Of a DNA stretch of 64,000 nucleotides, positions 57,484 through 63,758 are shown in pieces. The DNA comes from an uncultured Coriobacteriaceae bacterium. GTDB lineage: Bacteria; Actinomycetota; Coriobacteriia; Coriobacteriales; Atopobiaceae. Position 1 is the first letter of the stretch. Each line of letters opens with the position of its first letter. Location of the stretch: assembly GCA_902778135.1 (NCBI GenBank), contig CACYWP010000013.1:1-64000 (forward strand). Reading direction: 5' to 3'. The translations under genes and the position numbers were made by a program. The notes beneath the pieces are model-generated. The model ran no database searches and was not told the origin of the DNA. It saw only the letters and a list, made by a program, of their open reading frames with translations.

Positions 57484-57693
57484 ATGCCCCTTACGCTTCT
57501 TCATGCGGGTGAGAGCAGCATCATCACGCGCATCGGCGGAAAGCCAGAAACACGTCAGTTTCTCGAGGGGCTTGGATTTGTGGTAGGCACCCCCGTCACC
57601 GTTATCAGCGAGATTGACGGCAACGTCATCTGCGCCATCAAAGACACCCGCGTGGCCATTAGCAAAGAGATGGCCAGCAAGATCTTCGTCTAG
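57484..57693 (+). CDS. feoA: FeoA-domain protein 1
   Basis: The 69-residue SH3-like FeoA protein (MPLTLLHAGESSIITRIGGKPETRQFLEGLGFVVGTPVTV... AIKDTRVAISKEMASKIFV) is the small cytoplasmic partner of FeoB. AGGAAAGG precedes ATG 57484. It is the first gene of the feo operon; a second FeoA follows after 67 bases. Confidence 0.93.
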   Translation: MPLTLLHAGESSIITRIGGKPETRQFLEGLGFVVGTPVTVISEIDGNVICAIKDTRVAISKEMASKIFV

Positions 57694-57760
57694 CGCCCAA
57701 GGCGCCATTTCTCTGGTTATCAGCATGGTGCACCTGCACCTGCAAGGAAGGAGTCAATAC

Positions 57761-57994
57761 ATGACACTGCGAGAGGTCAAGGTCGGTCAGACCGCTAAGG
57801 TCGTAAAGCTTACGGGCACCGGCCCCGTCAAGCGCCGCATCATGGACATGGGCATCACCAAGGGCCAGCTTGTGCGCGTCATCAAGGTTGCCCCCCTCGG
57901 CGACCCCATGGAGATCACCGTGCGCAACTACGAGCTGTCGGTGCGCAAGGCTGACGCCGAGATGATCGAAGTCGAACTCGTCGAGGAGGCGTAA
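57761..57994 (+). CDS. feoA: FeoA-domain protein 2
   Basis: A second FeoA of 77 residues: MTLREVKVGQTAKVVKLTGTGPVKRRIMDMGITKGQLVRVIKVAPLGDPMEI. It is nearer to canonical FeoA than the first copy. AAGGAAGGAG precedes ATG 57761, and feoB starts five bases after its stop. Paired FeoA genes before FeoB are common in anaerobes; the two may form a heteromer on FeoB. Confidence 0.95.
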   Translation: MTLREVKVGQTAKVVKLTGTGPVKRRIMDMGITKGQLVRVIKVAPLGDPMEITVRNYELSVRKADAEMIEVELVEEA

Positions 57995-57999
57995 GGCCC

Positions 58000-60261
58000 A
58001 TGGCAAACATTACCATTGCCCTTGCAGGCAACCCCAACTGCGGTAAGACCACGCTCTTCAACGCCCTCACCGGCTCCAACCAGTACGTGGGCAACTGGCC
58101 CGGCGTCACGGTTGAGGAGAAGCACGGCAAGCTCAAGGGTCATGCCGACGTAACCATCGCCGACCTCCCGGGCATCTACTCGCTGTCCCCCTACACGCTG
58201 GAGGAGGTCGTCGCCCGCGATTACCTCACCGACCAGCGCCCCGACGCCATCCTCAACATCGTTGACGGCACCAACCTCGAGCGCAACCTCTACCTCACCA
58301 CGCAGCTCGTGGAGCTGGGCATCCCCGTGCTCGTGGCCATCAACATGATGGACGTCATCGAGAAGAACGGCGACGTAATTGACCTCGCCGCGCTAGCCAA
58401 GGCGCTCGACTGCAAGGTCGTGGCCATCTCGGCTCTCAAGGGCACGGGCATCAAGGAAGCCGCCGAGGAGGCTGTGGCGCTGGCCAAGAGCAGCATCAAG
58501 CCCATCCCGCAGCACCGCTTTGCGGGCTCCGTTGAGCACGCTATCGCCCACATTGAGGAAGTCAGCGTCCACAACCTGCCCGAGGAGCAGCAGCGCTGGT
58601 ACGCCATCAAGCTTTTCGAGCGCGACGAGAAGGTGCAGCAGAAGCTGGGCCTCTCCGCCGAGACCATCGCGCACATCGAGGGCGACATCGCTGCTTGCGA
58701 GACCGAGCTCGACGACGACGCCGAGTCCATCATCACCTCGCAGCGTTACGACTACATCACCTCGATCATTGACGGCTGCCTGCGTCGCGCCTCCCGTGGA
58801 GAGCTGACCACCTCCGACAAAATCGACAAGGTGGTCACCAACCGCTTTGCGGCCCTGTTCATCTTCGCCGGCATCATGTACGGCGTGTACTGGATTGCCA
58901 TGGGCCCGTTTGGCACCTTCCTCACCGACTGGACCAACGACGTGCTGGGCGGTGAGTGGCTGACCGAGGGTTCGCGTGCCATCTTCGAGGGCATGGGCCT
59001 CTCCGACTGGCTGGTGGGCCTGCTCGCCGACGGCATCTTCGCCGGCGTGGGCGCCGTCCTTGGCTTCGTGCCGCAGATGCTCGTCCTGTTCCTGCTTCTC
59101 GCCATCCTTGAGGACTGCGGCTACATGGCTCGTATCGCCTTCATCATGGACCGCATCTTCCGTCGCTTCGGCCTCTCCGGCAAGAGCTTCATCCCCATGC
59201 TCATCGGCACGGGCTGCGGCGTTCCTGGCGTTATGGCCTCGCGTACCATCGAGAACGAGCGTGACCGCCGCATGACCATCATGACCACCTGCTTCATCCC
59301 CTGCGGCGCCAAGATGCCCATCATCGGCCTCATCGCCGGTGCCCTCTTTGGCGGCGCAGCTTGGGTCTCCACCAGCGCCTACTTCATCGGCGTTGCCGCC
59401 ATCATCATCTCGGGCATCATGCTGAAGAAGACCGCCATGTTCGCCGGTGACCCCGCGCCCTTCGTCATGGAGCTTCCGGCGTACCACATGCCCACCGTGG
59501 GCAACGTGCTGCGCAGCATGTGGGAGCGCGGCTGGTCGTTCATCAAGAAGGCCGGCACCATCATTCTGCTGTCCTCCATCATCATCTGGGGCCTCAAGAG
59601 CTTCGGCACGGTCAACGGCCAGTTTGGCATGGTTGACACCCTGTACGAGAACGAGGAGCTCGTGACCGACGAGTACGTCGAGAGCGTCGCTGCCCGTACC
59701 GGCATCACTGCCGACGAGGTCAACCCCATGGACGACTCGCTGCTGGCTACCGTGGGCAACACCTTTGCCCCCATCTTCAAGCCGCTCGGCTTTGGCTCCT
59801 GGAAGCCCGCCGTGGCTACCGTCACGGGCCTGGTGGCCAAGGAGGAAGTTGTCTCCACCTTCGGCGTGCTGTACAACTACGACACCGACTCCGAGGACTG
59901 GGATGACGAGGGCTCGCCGGTGTGGGCCAACGTCAAGGCCGACTTCGACTCCTTCAGCAACGGCCATGGCCAGCTTGCCGCTTTCGCGTTCATGATCTTC
60001 AACCTGCTCTGCGCGCCGTGCTTCGCTGCCATGGGCGCCATCAAGCGCGAGATGAACAACGGCAAGTGGACCGCTATCGCCATTGGCTACATGTGCGTGT
60101 TTGCCTACGCGGCCGCCCTCGTGGTGTACCAGCTTGGTCTGGCGGGCTCCGGCGCTCTGAACCCGATTGGTATGGTTGCCGCCATCGCCGTGCTCGCGTT
60201 CGTCTGCTACATGCTCTTCGTGAAGAAGTACCAGGAGGCAGACAAGCTGCTCGTCAAGTAG
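58000..60261 (+). CDS. feoB: Ferrous iron transporter FeoB
   Basis: The 753-residue Fe2+ importer has an N-terminal GTPase (G1 GNPNCGKTT from residue 10, G3 DLPGIYSLSPYT, G4 NMMD), a helical GDI domain and a polytopic membrane part with two Gate repeats (MLIGTGCGVPGVMASRTIENERDRRMTIMTTCFIPCGAKMP). Conserved cysteines sit in those gates. The C-terminal segment ends with NLLCAPCFAAMGAIKREMNN. A strong terminator follows. Confidence 0.97.
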   Translation: MANITIALAGNPNCGKTTLFNALTGSNQYVGNWPGVTVEEKHGKLKGHADVTIADLPGIYSLSPYTLEEVVARDYLTDQRPDAILNIVDGTNLERNLYLTTQLVELGIPVLVAINMMDVIEKNGDVIDLAALAKALDCKVVAISALKGTGIKEAAEEAVALAKSSIKPIPQHRFAGSVEHAIAHIEEVSVHNLPEEQQRWYAIKLFERDEKVQQKLGLSAETIAHIEGDIAACETELDDDAESIITSQRYDYITSIIDGCLRRASRGELTTSDKIDKVVTNRFAALFIFAGIMYGVYWIAMGPFGTFLTDWTNDVLGGEWLTEGSRAIFEGMGLSDWLVGLLADGIFAGVGAVLGFVPQMLVLFLLLAILEDCGYMARIAFIMDRIFRRFGLSGKSFIPMLIGTGCGVPGVMASRTIENERDRRMTIMTTCFIPCGAKMPIIGLIAGALFGGAAWVSTSAYFIGVAAIIISGIMLKKTAMFAGDPAPFVMELPAYHMPTVGNVLRSMWERGWSFIKKAGTIILLSSIIIWGLKSFGTVNGQFGMVDTLYENEELVTDEYVESVAARTGITADEVNPMDDSLLATVGNTFAPIFKPLGFGSWKPAVATVTGLVAKEEVVSTFGVLYNYDTDSEDWDDEGSPVWANVKADFDSFSNGHGQLAAFAFMIFNLLCAPCFAAMGAIKREMNNGKWTAIAIGYMCVFAYAAALVVYQLGLAGSGALNPIGMVAAIAVLAFVCYMLFVKKYQEADKLLVK

Positions 60262-60281
60262 TTGGATTCGCCCTTCCTTTC

Positions 60282-60317
60282 GGGCCGTCGGTATCCTGCG
60301 CCGACGGCCCGTTTTTT
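60282..60317 (+). terminator. Intrinsic terminator of the feo operon
   Basis: A 10-bp perfect stem (GGGCCGTCGG) with a nine-base loop and T6 lies 20 bases after feoB. Confidence 0.93.
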
Positions 60318-60347
60318 ATGGACTTCAGCGCTGAGGTGTCTACAATT

Positions 60348-60364
60348 GTTTACCTAGGGTAACC
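60348..60364. promoter_or_regulatory. DtxR/IdeR-like iron box before the FeoB-associated gene
   Basis: GTTTACCTAGGGTAACC is a near-perfect palindrome (TTACCTAGGGTAA core) 37 bases before the next start. It resembles the site upstream of feoA and implies separate, iron-controlled transcription of this pair. Confidence 0.55.
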
Positions 60365-60400
60365 TTCTATCCGTTACCGTCTATCAGGAGGGAGTAGGTC

Positions 60401-60640
60401 ATGCAACAGCTTTCGCTGAATCTGGCAGACGTTGTCGTCCTCTCCATCATCATCGGAGTCGTAGCGCTTATTGTGCGCGGCATGCTTCGCGGCACCATCC
60501 GCACCTGTGACAGCGCAAGTTGCAGCGGCAACTGCGGGAGCTGTGGGAGCCAGTGCGCTTCGCCGCGCATCAAGCTCACGCGTGAGCAGCGGGCGCAGCT
60601 TCGCGAGATCGATCGCCGTGCAAAGGAGGCACAGCTGTGA
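60401..60640 (+). CDS. FeoB-associated Cys-rich membrane protein
   Basis: The 79-residue protein has one helix (VVVLSIIIGVVALIVRGML) then a cysteine cluster CDSASCSGNCGSCGSQC and a charged tail. This is the FeoB_associated (PF12669) pattern, always near feoB. It may bind or hand over Fe2+. GGAGGGAGTAGG lies before ATG 60401. Its TGA overlaps the GTG of the next gene. Confidence 0.88.
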   Translation: MQQLSLNLADVVVLSIIIGVVALIVRGMLRGTIRTCDSASCSGNCGSCGSQCASPRIKLTREQRAQLREIDRRAKEAQL

Positions 60641-60888
60641 TTCAGACCACCATCGGCATTGACGGCATGATGTGCGAGATGTGCGAGGCGCACATCAACG
60701 ACGCTATCCGCAGGCACTTTACCGTCAAGAGCGCCAAGAGCAACCGGAAGAAGAAGCAGTGCGTCGTGGTGTCGGAAGAGCCGCTCGACGAGGCACGCGT
60801 GCGGGAGGTCATCGATGAGACCGGCTACGACTACCTCTCCATCAGCTCCGAGCCCTACCAGAAGAAGAAGCTGTTCGGGCTCTTCTAG
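60637..60888 (+). CDS. Heavy-metal-associated (HMA) domain protein
   Basis: The 83-residue protein carries the metal motif GMMCEMCEAHIND (Cys-x2-Cys) in a ferredoxin-like HMA fold. A lysine/arginine-rich loop (SAKSNRKKKQCVVV) and a KKKLFGLF tail follow. The start is GTG 60637, with AAAGGAGG seven bases upstream and GTGA overlap with the Cys-rich gene. HMA proteins usually carry Cu+ or Zn2+; beside feo genes the ligand is uncertain. Confidence 0.88.
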   Translation: MIQTTIGIDGMMCEMCEAHINDAIRRHFTVKSAKSNRKKKQCVVVSEEPLDEARVREVIDETGYDYLSISSEPYQKKKLFGLF

Positions 60889-61087: not shown

Positions 61088-62086
61088 TCACAGCAGCTCG
61101 AAGGCGCCCTGTGGGCACATCGTGCGCTCCCCCGCCTGGTCGATGAGCAGCACCCTGAGCTCAGGGTGCTCCCCCGCCCAGGCAAGCGCCCGCTCCGCCC
61201 CCATCATGAAGAGCGGCTTGGTGTACCCGTCCCCGTCTATGGAGCGCTCGCTCACGATGCTGGCGCTCACCAGGTCGCTCTCCACCGGGTAGCCCGTGCG
61301 CGGGTCCAGGATGTGCCAGTAGCGCCGGCCGTCCTGCTCGAACTGGCGCTCGTAGAGGCCGCTGGTGACCACCGAGCCGCCGGTGAGCTCCACACGCGCC
61401 ACCGACGACTCCTGCTCGGCCGCGGCCTTGGGGTCGCGCACGCCCACGCGCCAGGGGCTGCCGTCGGGCTTTGCCCCCAACACCTTCACGTTGCCGCCCA
61501 GGTTCACGTACGCGCTGGTGACGCCCGCCTCGGCCAGCTCGTCGAGCACCACGTCGGACACGTAGCCCTTGGCGATGCCACCCAGGTCGATGCGCGCCAG
61601 CGGGTCGGCTAGCGTCACCGTTGTGCCCTCTACCTGCACGTTTTGGTAGCCCACGTGCGGCAGCGCCTGCGCGACGGCCTCGGGCGCGGGCACCACGCCC
61701 TCGTGGAAGTCCCACAGCTCGCTCACCGCGCCGATGGTGATGTCGAAGGACCCTTCCGACGCGCGGCAGTACTCCAGCGCCCGCACAATCAGCTCCGCCG
61801 TCTCGGGCTCCACCTCTACGGGCGTGCCACCGGCCGCATTGATCCGCCCCACATCGCTGGTGGCCATCGTGCGCGAGAGCGTGGCCTCAAAGCCCCTGCA
61901 GCGCGCCACCGCCGCATCCAGCTGCGTCTGCGTCATCACGCCACCCACCGCGCAGGCCGTGTCGAAGCAGAAGAACGAGCTCTGCAGCTGCCGGCCTGCG
62001 ACGCGCCCGGCGTTCGAGCAACCCGCCAGCAACAGGCTCGCCGCAGCCAGCGGCGCACGCAGCAGCGTCCTTCGCGAGATGTTCAT
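61088..62086 (-). CDS. apbE: FAD:protein FMN transferase (ApbE lipoprotein)
   Basis: ApbE attaches FMN covalently to Thr/Ser of extracytoplasmic electron-transfer proteins, using FAD. The 332-residue protein has a twin-arginine-like leader and lipobox LAGC. The core has SSFFCFDTACAV, ARIDLGGIAKGYVSDVVLDEL, SAYVNLGGNVKVLG, RYWHILDPRTGYPVES and DGDGYTKPLFMMG (metal ligands). ATG 62086 has GGAGG upstream. It is divergent from the NusG-II/Gx pair, a recurrent neighbourhood of flavin-based electron transfer. Confidence 0.94.
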   Translation of the reverse strand: MNISRRTLLRAPLAAASLLLAGCSNAGRVAGRQLQSSFFCFDTACAVGGVMTQTQLDAAVARCRGFEATLSRTMATSDVGRINAAGGTPVEVEPETAELIVRALEYCRASEGSFDITIGAVSELWDFHEGVVPAPEAVAQALPHVGYQNVQVEGTTVTLADPLARIDLGGIAKGYVSDVVLDELAEAGVTSAYVNLGGNVKVLGAKPDGSPWRVGVRDPKAAAEQESSVARVELTGGSVVTSGLYERQFEQDGRRYWHILDPRTGYPVESDLVSASIVSERSIDGDGYTKPLFMMGAERALAWAGEHPELRVLLIDQAGERTMCPQGAFELL

Positions 62087-62148
62087 GTGGGCATTGCCTC
62101 CATCCTTTTTCACTGCGTAAGGCTACCATAGACGGCGGAGGGAGGCCC

Positions 62149-62583
62149 ATGGACCTGGCACGCACCATACGAGAGAACCGCGCCACCGTCGTCGTGGCGG
62201 CCGTCGTGATGGCGCTCGTCGCCGGGCTGTGGCTGGCGCTTGGCCGAGGCCCGGCAGACGACGGTACGCTGGTGGCCCTGGTGCACGACGCCGACGGGCG
62301 GACCTACGAGCTGCCGCTCGACCGTGACGACACCCTCACCGTCACCACCAGCCTGGGCAGCAACACCGTCGTGGTCGAGAATGGCGCGGTCCGCATGGCC
62401 GACGCCGACTGTCCCAACCGCACCTGCCTGCAGGTGGCACCGCTCGCGCAGCCGGGCCCGCAGATCATCTGCCTGCCGCACCAACTGTGGATAGAGGTCG
62501 TGCCGCAGGGCGAGGCGGGCGGCACGATGGACGTGAGCCGCGCCGAAGACCTCGGCTCCGAGATCGACCTGCAGGCGCGCTAG
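62149..62583 (+). CDS. NusG domain II-containing membrane protein
   Basis: The 144-residue protein has one N-terminal helix (VVVAAVVMALVAGLWLALG) and an outer NusG_II (PF07009) domain with VENGAVRMADADCPNRTCLQ and QIICLPHQLWIEV, including the conserved cysteines. It has nothing to do with transcription in spite of the name. It commonly accompanies ApbE and Gx-type transporters. GGAGGGAGG precedes ATG 62149, and the next gene starts two bases after its stop. Confidence 0.9.
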   Translation: MDLARTIRENRATVVVAAVVMALVAGLWLALGRGPADDGTLVALVHDADGRTYELPLDRDDTLTVTTSLGSNTVVVENGAVRMADADCPNRTCLQVAPLAQPGPQIICLPHQLWIEVVPQGEAGGTMDVSRAEDLGSEIDLQAR

Positions 62584-62585
62584 CC

Positions 62586-63758
62586 ATGACCGGCGCCACC
62601 GCAGACACCACGCCCCTCTCCCCCGCCGAAATCCGGCACTGGACGCGCATCGGCACGCTCTGCGCGCTCTCGCTGCTGCTGGGCTACCTGGAGACCTTCC
62701 TGCCCATACCCATTCCGGGCGTCAAGCTTGGCCTGGCCAACGTCGCCGTGCTGGTCGCCCTGGCACAGGGAGACGTAGGCGGGGCCTGCTGGGTCGCACT
62801 GGTCAAGGTCACGGCAACGTGCCTGCTCTTCGGAAACCCCGTAACCCTGGCCTACTCGCTCGTGGGAACGCTGCTCTCCCTCGCCTGCATGGCACCGCTC
62901 TCCCAGCTGCCGACGATGCGGCTGGAGATGGCCTCGGTGGCAGGCGCCCTCGCCCACGAGGCGGGACAGCTGCTCGTCGCCCAGGCCCTGCTGGGCACGC
63001 CGCTGGTCTGGTACGGCGCGCCGGCGCTGGCGGTGGCGGGCTGCGTGACGGGCGCGATCAGCGGCATCGTCGCGCGAAGGGCGGCGGAGCTGCTGGCGGA
63101 GGTCGAGCAGGGGACGGCCGATGACACTGGCTCCTCCCCCGATGCGGCCCAAGCGCTTCCCGAGCGTCCGGGGGTCCTGCCGCCGAACCTCCTCGCCTGG
63201 GCGCTGGCAGGCTACGCCGTGCTGGTCATCGTCTGCATGCACGCGCGTGCCGCAATCCCCCTTGCCGTCTGCGGCTCGCTCGCCCTTGCCGGATGCCGGG
63301 CTGGCAGGGTGAGGCCGCGACAGCTGGGCCGTGCGCTCGCGCCGACGCTGCCCCTGGCCGTGATGACGCTCGTGGCGCAAGTGGCCAGCAACCAGCACGG
63401 GAGCGTCCTCGCCCATGTCGGCCCCCTGGCGCTCACCGACGCAGCCGTCACGTCGTCCGCCACCATGCTCGTCCGCCTGGCAACCATAACCATGGCCAGC
63501 GTGGCCGTGACGGCTCTTGTGGGATCCGACGGCCTGGCACGCTGCGCACGCGCCGCACTCGTGCCCCTCCATGCGACAGGGGTCGCAACCGATGGTCCCG
63601 AGCTGGCCCTTTCCACCACGATGAGGCTGCTGCCCCTGTTGGTCTCACAGGCCGGGCGGCCCGACGCCGGCACGGTCTGGTCGCGGGCCTTCTGGACCGA
63701 CGAGCTGCCTCGCCTCGTGCAGCACCTCTACCGTCAGGCGCTGCGCTCCGCCAGCTGA
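62586..63758 (+). CDS. Gx transporter (HepS1-like) fused to EcfT-like domain
   Basis: The first ~170 of 390 residues are the Gx_transp family (IPIPGVKLGLANVAVLVALAQGDVGGACWVALVKVTATCLLFGNP), an S-component-like membrane protein. A disordered linker (~175-200) leads into a second membrane domain like CbiQ/EcfT (AIPLAVCGSLALAG... LVRLATITMASVAVTALVGS... LALSTTMRLLPLLVSQAG). This gives an S-T fusion without a local ATPase. It starts two bases after the NusG-II gene. Likely cargo is a flavin or isoprenoid/quinone precursor. Confidence 0.8.
   Translation: MTGATADTTPLSPAEIRHWTRIGTLCALSLLLGYLETFLPIPIPGVKLGLANVAVLVALAQGDVGGACWVALVKVTATCLLFGNPVTLAYSLVGTLLSLACMAPLSQLPTMRLEMASVAGALAHEAGQLLVAQALLGTPLVWYGAPALAVAGCVTGAISGIVARRAAELLAEVEQGTADDTGSSPDAAQALPERPGVLPPNLLAWALAGYAVLVIVCMHARAAIPLAVCGSLALAGCRAGRVRPRQLGRALAPTLPLAVMTLVAQVASNQHGSVLAHVGPLALTDAAVTSSATMLVRLATITMASVAVTALVGSDGLARCARAALVPLHATGVATDGPELALSTTMRLLPLLVSQAGRPDAGTVWSRAFWTDELPRLVQHLYRQALRSAS

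Follow-up and report, generated by a model that had tools for sequence, protein, structure and literature searches.

The route by which extracytoplasmic flavoproteins, Rnf among them, obtain their FAD is known only in part. In the window, that is, the whole stretch of 64,000 nucleotides analysed (contig CACYWP010000013.1, from an uncultured Coriobacteriaceae bacterium of the Atopobiaceae), a putative FAD exporter is fused to an EcfT-like domain from which most of the ATPase-coupling region is gone, next to a gene for a flavin transferase. This locus raises two questions: which flavoprotein would it serve, and how would FAD leave the cell through such a protein?

Gene layout of the cluster

The cluster starts with apbE (61088-62113, minus strand), which encodes a FAD:protein FMN transferase (Pfam PF02424, E 6.5e-83), a lipoprotein with the lipobox LLLAGC, read by eye. 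Across a gap of 35 bases, the divergent eetA-like gene (62149-62583, plus strand) encodes 144 aa with a NusG_II domain (Pfam, E 2.3e-20), and 2 bases after its end begins the eetB-T* fusion gene (62586-63758, plus strand; 390 aa from the ATG), where T* denotes the shortened T half. A longer ORF starting with GTG (62487-63758) merely overlaps eetA, and the ATG at 62586 agrees with the family alignment. These neighbours are not brought together by chance, as apbE is found in 40 and eetA in 39 of the 42 family loci, the window's own included. The eetA/eetB-T*/apbE cluster contains no ATPase gene, and an Rfam search of the whole window gave no match for an RNA element near the genes. Upstream, positions 57484-60888 hold two feoA genes, feoB, and genes for a FeoB-associated Cys-rich protein and an HMA-domain protein.

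The EetA-like protein has a NusG domain II (DUF1312) behind a single N-terminal membrane helix, and its AlphaFold model (pLDDT 90) matches 4esn_B with Z 14.9 and an rmsd of 1.3 over 77 residues. We considered a role as a cofactor protein but do not claim one, since its strong fold matches are to NusG domain II/DUF1312 structures only. C88, C93, C108 and H111 are kept in 39 of 39 family copies; in an alignment of 36 EetA rows the three cysteines are invariant and the histidine is not, often being Asn in Clostridia. Going by this conservation, it is possible that C88, C93 and C108 form a disulphide or a metal site on the outer face.

An EetB S-component fused to an EcfT-like domain

The fusion protein was modelled by AlphaFold from 36 sequences (mean pLDDT 89.1, pTM 0.85). 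Its EetB half (residues 14-175; 62625-63110, plus strand) is an ECF S-component with a RibU-like fold: residues 25-164 match the Pfam family Hpre_diP_synt_I (Gx/EetB, PF07456) with E 4.6e-30 and 105 bits against a cut-off of 30, and residues 14-175 of the model match the riboflavin S-components TmRibU 5kbw_B (Z 12.8, rmsd 2.9, 159 aligned; VIA-align) and 3p5n_A (Z 11.9). A flexible linker without secondary structure follows at about residues 180-199 (63123-63182, plus strand), with a pLDDT of 62-69 at residues 181-200, the minimum of a model whose mean is 89. The EcfT-like core spans about residues 200-350 (63183-63635, plus strand). NCBIfam CbiQ covers residues 212-310 at E 8.9e-5, well under its cut-off, and about residues 197-390 of the model match nine EcfT entries with Z 8.2-11.8, the best being 7nnt_D (Z 11.8, rmsd 4.6, 187 aligned, chain 17-216). 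Foldseek on the fusion model returned no E-value <0.001, with EcfT chains at the top (7nnu_D, 4.4e-3, probability 1.00). On the S side, all 41 aligned rows retain the small-xxx-small pair of helix 1 (positions 23 and 27); AXXXA on helix 1 of S-components is the T-binding pair (PMC11109136).

An earlier sequence-only reading of this DNA had described a Gx-type domain joined by a disordered linker to an EcfT-like domain, with a NusG-II protein two bases upstream and apbE divergent, and the ORFs, the Pfam matches and the model, including its low-confidence linker, confirm this arrangement. The term EcfT-like holds for the membrane core, which matches EcfT; the domain itself is incomplete.

The N-terminal half belongs to EetB (PF07456), a FAD-exporting family of ECF S-components, and is predicted to bind and export FAD. 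It is highly improbable that the protein instead imports flavin or carries a prenyl or quinone precursor: the only points in favour are the old Pfam name 'heptaprenyl diphosphate synthase component I' and the ECF ancestry, whereas in Listeria FAD is pulled down with EetB, its export requires EetB, and EetB is no substitute for RibU in uptake (PMC9973259). Thus, the uptake of flavin and the supply of a quinone precursor, both suggested in the sequence-only reading, do not fit a protein whose characterised relative exports FAD, and nothing was found in support of a quinone precursor.

The fused T domain lacks most of the coupling region

T couples to the ATPase through its two Arg motifs, and a double replacement prevents the complex from forming (PMC3246461); the coupling domain holds the S-component on one side and, on the opposite side, the ATPases (PMC4820897). 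In the fusion protein, the region that holds the Arg motifs and the last helix in a complete EcfT is a short C-terminal tail (residues 351-390; 63636-63755, plus strand), which has 40 residues after the LRFIP-like proline against 95 in canonical T, no membrane helix, and, of the motifs, only S-R-A within SRAFW. In line with this, the EcfT structure matches of the model end at EcfT residue 216-221, and the match of profile A1, made from 12 fusions, to the solved EcfT 4huq_T (E 1.4e-15) covers residues 37-195 of its 280 and goes no further. The genome's own canonical EcfT, in contrast, aligns to near the end of the solved structures and carries both motifs, AQTARGG and ALDARCY.

The same holds across the 42 family loci, which comprise 39 fused rows, 2 EetB-ATPase fusions and 1 copy cut by a contig end; 38 of the fused tails are readable. 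All 39 fused rows have 27-72 residues after the proline, not 95, and we therefore reject chance or a frameshift as the origin of the short T half. The last membrane helix is missing in the 39 fused tails (best 19-residue hydropathy 1.25 versus 1.96 in canonical T), and both Arg motifs together occur in 0 of the 38 readable tails. Single [AS]R[GSAC] triplets, the SRA of the window protein among them, are present in nine of the 38, mostly elsewhere in the tail. In G039/G040 the aligner sets S-R-T in the column of the second motif, and the tails of G132/G135 end in S-R-G; neither was counted as conserved. The fused T is thus an incomplete EcfT, a membrane core with shortened coupling helices from which the Arg-motif pair and the last helix are gone. 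Since both are lost, the usual way of recruiting an ATPase is probably closed to T*.

A changed dock is conceivable, as Arg remnants persist near the place of the first motif: an Arg lies somewhere at tail positions 12-22 in 32 of the 38 tails, AQGARV (G050) and RGARM (G039/G040) stand at the canonical place of the first Arg motif, and x-R-x-[FL]-W occurs in 11 of the 38. A single, altered Arg site such as SRAFW might then still let T* dock directly on an ECF ATPase. However, no Arg site is common to all copies, none has both motifs, and the tail evolves fastest; moreover, SRTFW stands beside AQGAR in G050, and therefore the two are not the same site. We consider direct docking unlikely.

EetB follows Rnf across the class

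The source genome (3.17 Mb, 98.6% complete, 3.6% contamination) has uncultured Atopobiaceae-like MAGs and Olsenella as its nearest named relatives. A genome-wide search found a single ApbE, a single EetB and a single FMN_bind protein. This sole FMN_bind protein found is RnfG, encoded in an rnfCDGEAB operon on contig 21; this is not the contig of eetB, so the link to Rnf in this genome rests on co-occurrence. The C, D, E, A and B subunits score above the NCBIfam cut-offs, and G falls below its cut-off although RnfG models rank top. RnfG contains DLISGATIS and RnfD contains VSSATPLA, which we take to be FMN-attachment motifs.

Among 396 genomes of the class, EetB is found in 141, RnfD in 118 and ApbE in 223. 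In these counts, which come from related, non-independent genomes and are made without a species tree, EetB is present in 117 of the 118 genomes with RnfD (the exception is 73% complete) versus 24 of the 278 without it; when only genomes with ApbE are considered, the figures are 113 of 114 versus 22 of 109. The 140 family genomes, counted in the same way, behave alike (EetB in 42, RnfD in 39, ApbE in 53, FMN_bind in 51), with EetB in 38 of 39 genomes with RnfD versus 4 of 101 without; two of these 4 are 75-77% complete, and the one genome with RnfD and no EetB is 68% complete. EetB follows RnfD, not ApbE, and ApbE alone is a far poorer predictor of EetB. Three genomes from two related genera (G039, G040, G050) have the cluster next to rnf, and rnf genes adjoin eetA-eetB in 7 of 20 further class loci. 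Indeed, eetB has been described as colocalising most commonly with Rnf and extracellular electron transfer (EET) systems (PMC9973259). For the 24 class genomes with EetB and no RnfD, the surroundings of eetB were covered in eight and the clients in two. Both of the latter have likely clients other than Rnf: in G058, apbE has FMN_bind proteins and an Fe-S membrane protein beside it, and in G061 a FMN_bind lipoprotein lies near a fumarate-reductase-like flavoprotein.

We consider it likely, on this pairing, that the cluster is an Rnf maturation module, exporting FAD for the ApbE flavinylation of RnfG and RnfD. The earlier proposal of a flavin supply for an extracytoplasmic redox protein flavinylated by ApbE is supported in this form, with RnfG and RnfD as targets; its placement in an extracellular electron-transfer chain is not, as the sole FMN_bind protein found is RnfG. 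Such a chain, reducing ferric iron while the neighbouring FeoB takes up the ferrous product, would account for the feoA and feoB genes upstream in the window and for the closeness of FeoB and apbE, which lie within 1.6 kb of each other, in either relative orientation, in 16 of the 40 family loci that contain apbE. It is nevertheless improbable, given that the genome search found no FMN_bind protein besides RnfG, that EetB tracks RnfD instead of ApbE, and that the 11 family genomes with ApbE and no EetB also have no RnfD. FMN_bind proteins are found in 8 of these 11 (entries L093-L099 and L103).

Stages of T loss and selection on the remaining core

Comparing fused with separate genes across Coriobacteriia, as the sequence-only reading had proposed, yields full, partial and reduced fusions as well as separate T genes. 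Where T is a gene of its own, either next to eetB (G272, G368) or next to ECF ATPases (G402, G178, G183), it retains the motifs or close variants; in G395 EetB is fused to a full-length T, and in G367 and G326 to a partly shortened one. In an EetB-only tree of 73 rows, which is a quick one with long-branch warnings among the outer rows, the T* fusions form a group with the contig-cut copy (SH-aLRT 92), joined next by the two partial fusions (97) and after these by the full fusion together with the ATPase fusions (92). This order, together with the graded loss of the coupling region, fits a stepwise loss after fusion.

Another arrangement also occurs. In G048 and G058, EetB is fused to an ECF ATPase and followed by A' and T genes, making a self-contained exporter operon. 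G048 has RnfD, and its genus-mate G050 carries a T* fusion.

For the six closest of the 30 pairs listed, dN/dS is 0.19-0.36 in T* versus 0.10-0.20 in EetB; over all 215 pairs, many of them with high dS, the medians are 0.62 for T*, 0.30 for EetB and 1.04 for the tail. Judged by these ratios, T* is still constrained, although a median of 0.62, with 1.04 in the tail, makes partial decay possible. One could take this further and regard T* as a functionless, decaying remnant with EetB working alone, and the graded loss, the position of the T* fusions next to partial fusions on the tree and a dN/dS above that of EetB all agree with that; yet the T core is in frame in all 39 fused rows, and the ratios in the closest pairs are low. 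We hold this to be quite improbable.

Export with or without an ATPase

We propose the following route. By homology to Listeria EetB, the EetB half would bind FAD and carry it from the cytosol to the outside, where ApbE, a lipoprotein of the outer face, would use it to attach FMN covalently to RnfG and RnfD. The EetA-like protein would accompany EetB and ApbE and may assist them.

For the energy of this step, there are two main possibilities. First, the tethered S-T* pair may let FAD leave by facilitated diffusion, pulled by ApbE. Export of FAD into an irreversible ApbE sink should be downhill, which favours facilitated diffusion, and solitary BtuM has been proposed to work in this way (PMC6072759). 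Single Arg triplets persist in some tails, which lowers the odds; in addition, FAD export in Listeria needs the EcfA/EcfA' ATPases (PMC9973259), which argues against a motorless exporter unless the lineage changed. Facilitated diffusion through the S-T* pair is therefore put forward tentatively. The wider proposal, that Atopobiaceae-like Coriobacteriia have an ATPase-free ECF offshoot in which FAD moves downhill via a tethered S and a cut-down T, arisen stepwise after fusion from an ATP-coupled S+T pair, is rather doubtful.

Second, export may be driven by ATP in trans, with the EetB half docking on a shared EcfT-EcfAA' module and T* only tethering or chaperoning it. The search for ECF ATPases and flavinylation targets suggested by the sequence-only reading found, besides RnfG and RnfD, the parts for this in the source genome: at C7:59.4-61.8 kb on contig 7, unlinked to eetB-T*, the intact EcfT with its two Arg motifs lies beside an EcfAA' fusion, a protein with two ABC domains (C7:60139-61827; best TIGR04520 score 308.8 against a cut-off of 315). 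In six genomes of another Coriobacteriia family (L184-L189), eetB and apbE lie about 2-6 kb from an EcfAA'-type ATPase, with EcfT beside it in five, which fits ATP-coupled export there. The EetB-ATPase fusions of G048 and G058 and the Listeria requirement for EcfAA' point the same way. On the other hand, docking in trans gives no reason for the retention of a separate T core, fused and under constraint, and in Listeria FmnA apparently cannot be replaced by EcfT for export (PMC9973259). We hold this possibility, about as likely as facilitated diffusion, with equal reserve.

Relation to known systems

The closest characterised system is EetB-FmnA of Listeria monocytogenes (PMC9973259), which has in common with the cluster a PF07456 S-component, an EcfT relative, EetA, FmnB/ApbE and FAD for extracytoplasmic flavinylation. 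Here, in contrast, S and T are fused, most of the coupling region is missing, and the likely client is Rnf, not PplA/EET; a PplA-like FMN_bind lipoprotein of the Listeria-type EET locus was not found in the locus or the source genome. FmnA can replace EcfT in RibU-driven import (PMC9973259), and therefore FmnA should couple. Canonical group II ECF transporters (EcfT 4huq, 5d3m, 7nnt) share the S fold and the T membrane core and differ in having the Arg-motif pair, the last T helix and an ATPase gene, none of which is present in the cluster. Solitary BioY and BtuM are reported to move substrate by an S-component without an ECF module (PMC11109136, PMC6072759), a module that E. coli does not have (PMC6072759); these import and have no attached T domain, whereas the window protein is a putative exporter with T*.

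EetB as a FAD exporter, its ECF-T and ECF-A fusions and its association with Rnf are already known (PMC9973259). The EetB-ECF-T fusions listed there (WP_021725833.1, MBE6480012.1, MBQ3267887.1) have, by description and not by sequence, the architecture of the window protein, and WP_006284433.1 is an example of EetB-ECF-A. The main text of that paper does not use the word 'motif', and loss of the coupling motifs is not discussed in it. Our literature search returned nothing on EetB fused with EcfT by name, on NusG domain II with Rnf and ApbE, or on an Rnf complex of Atopobiaceae. Within the scope of our searches, the new points are the disappearance of the coupling region from the fused T and the stages of this loss, the near one-to-one pairing of EetB with Rnf in the class, and RnfG as the sole FMN_bind protein found in the genome.

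The near one-to-one pairing suggests that, beyond Firmicutes as well, Rnf likely requires EetB in order to mature. With T present in full, partial and reduced form among living relatives, its cut-back version can serve as a natural experiment in whether ECF export depends on ATP.
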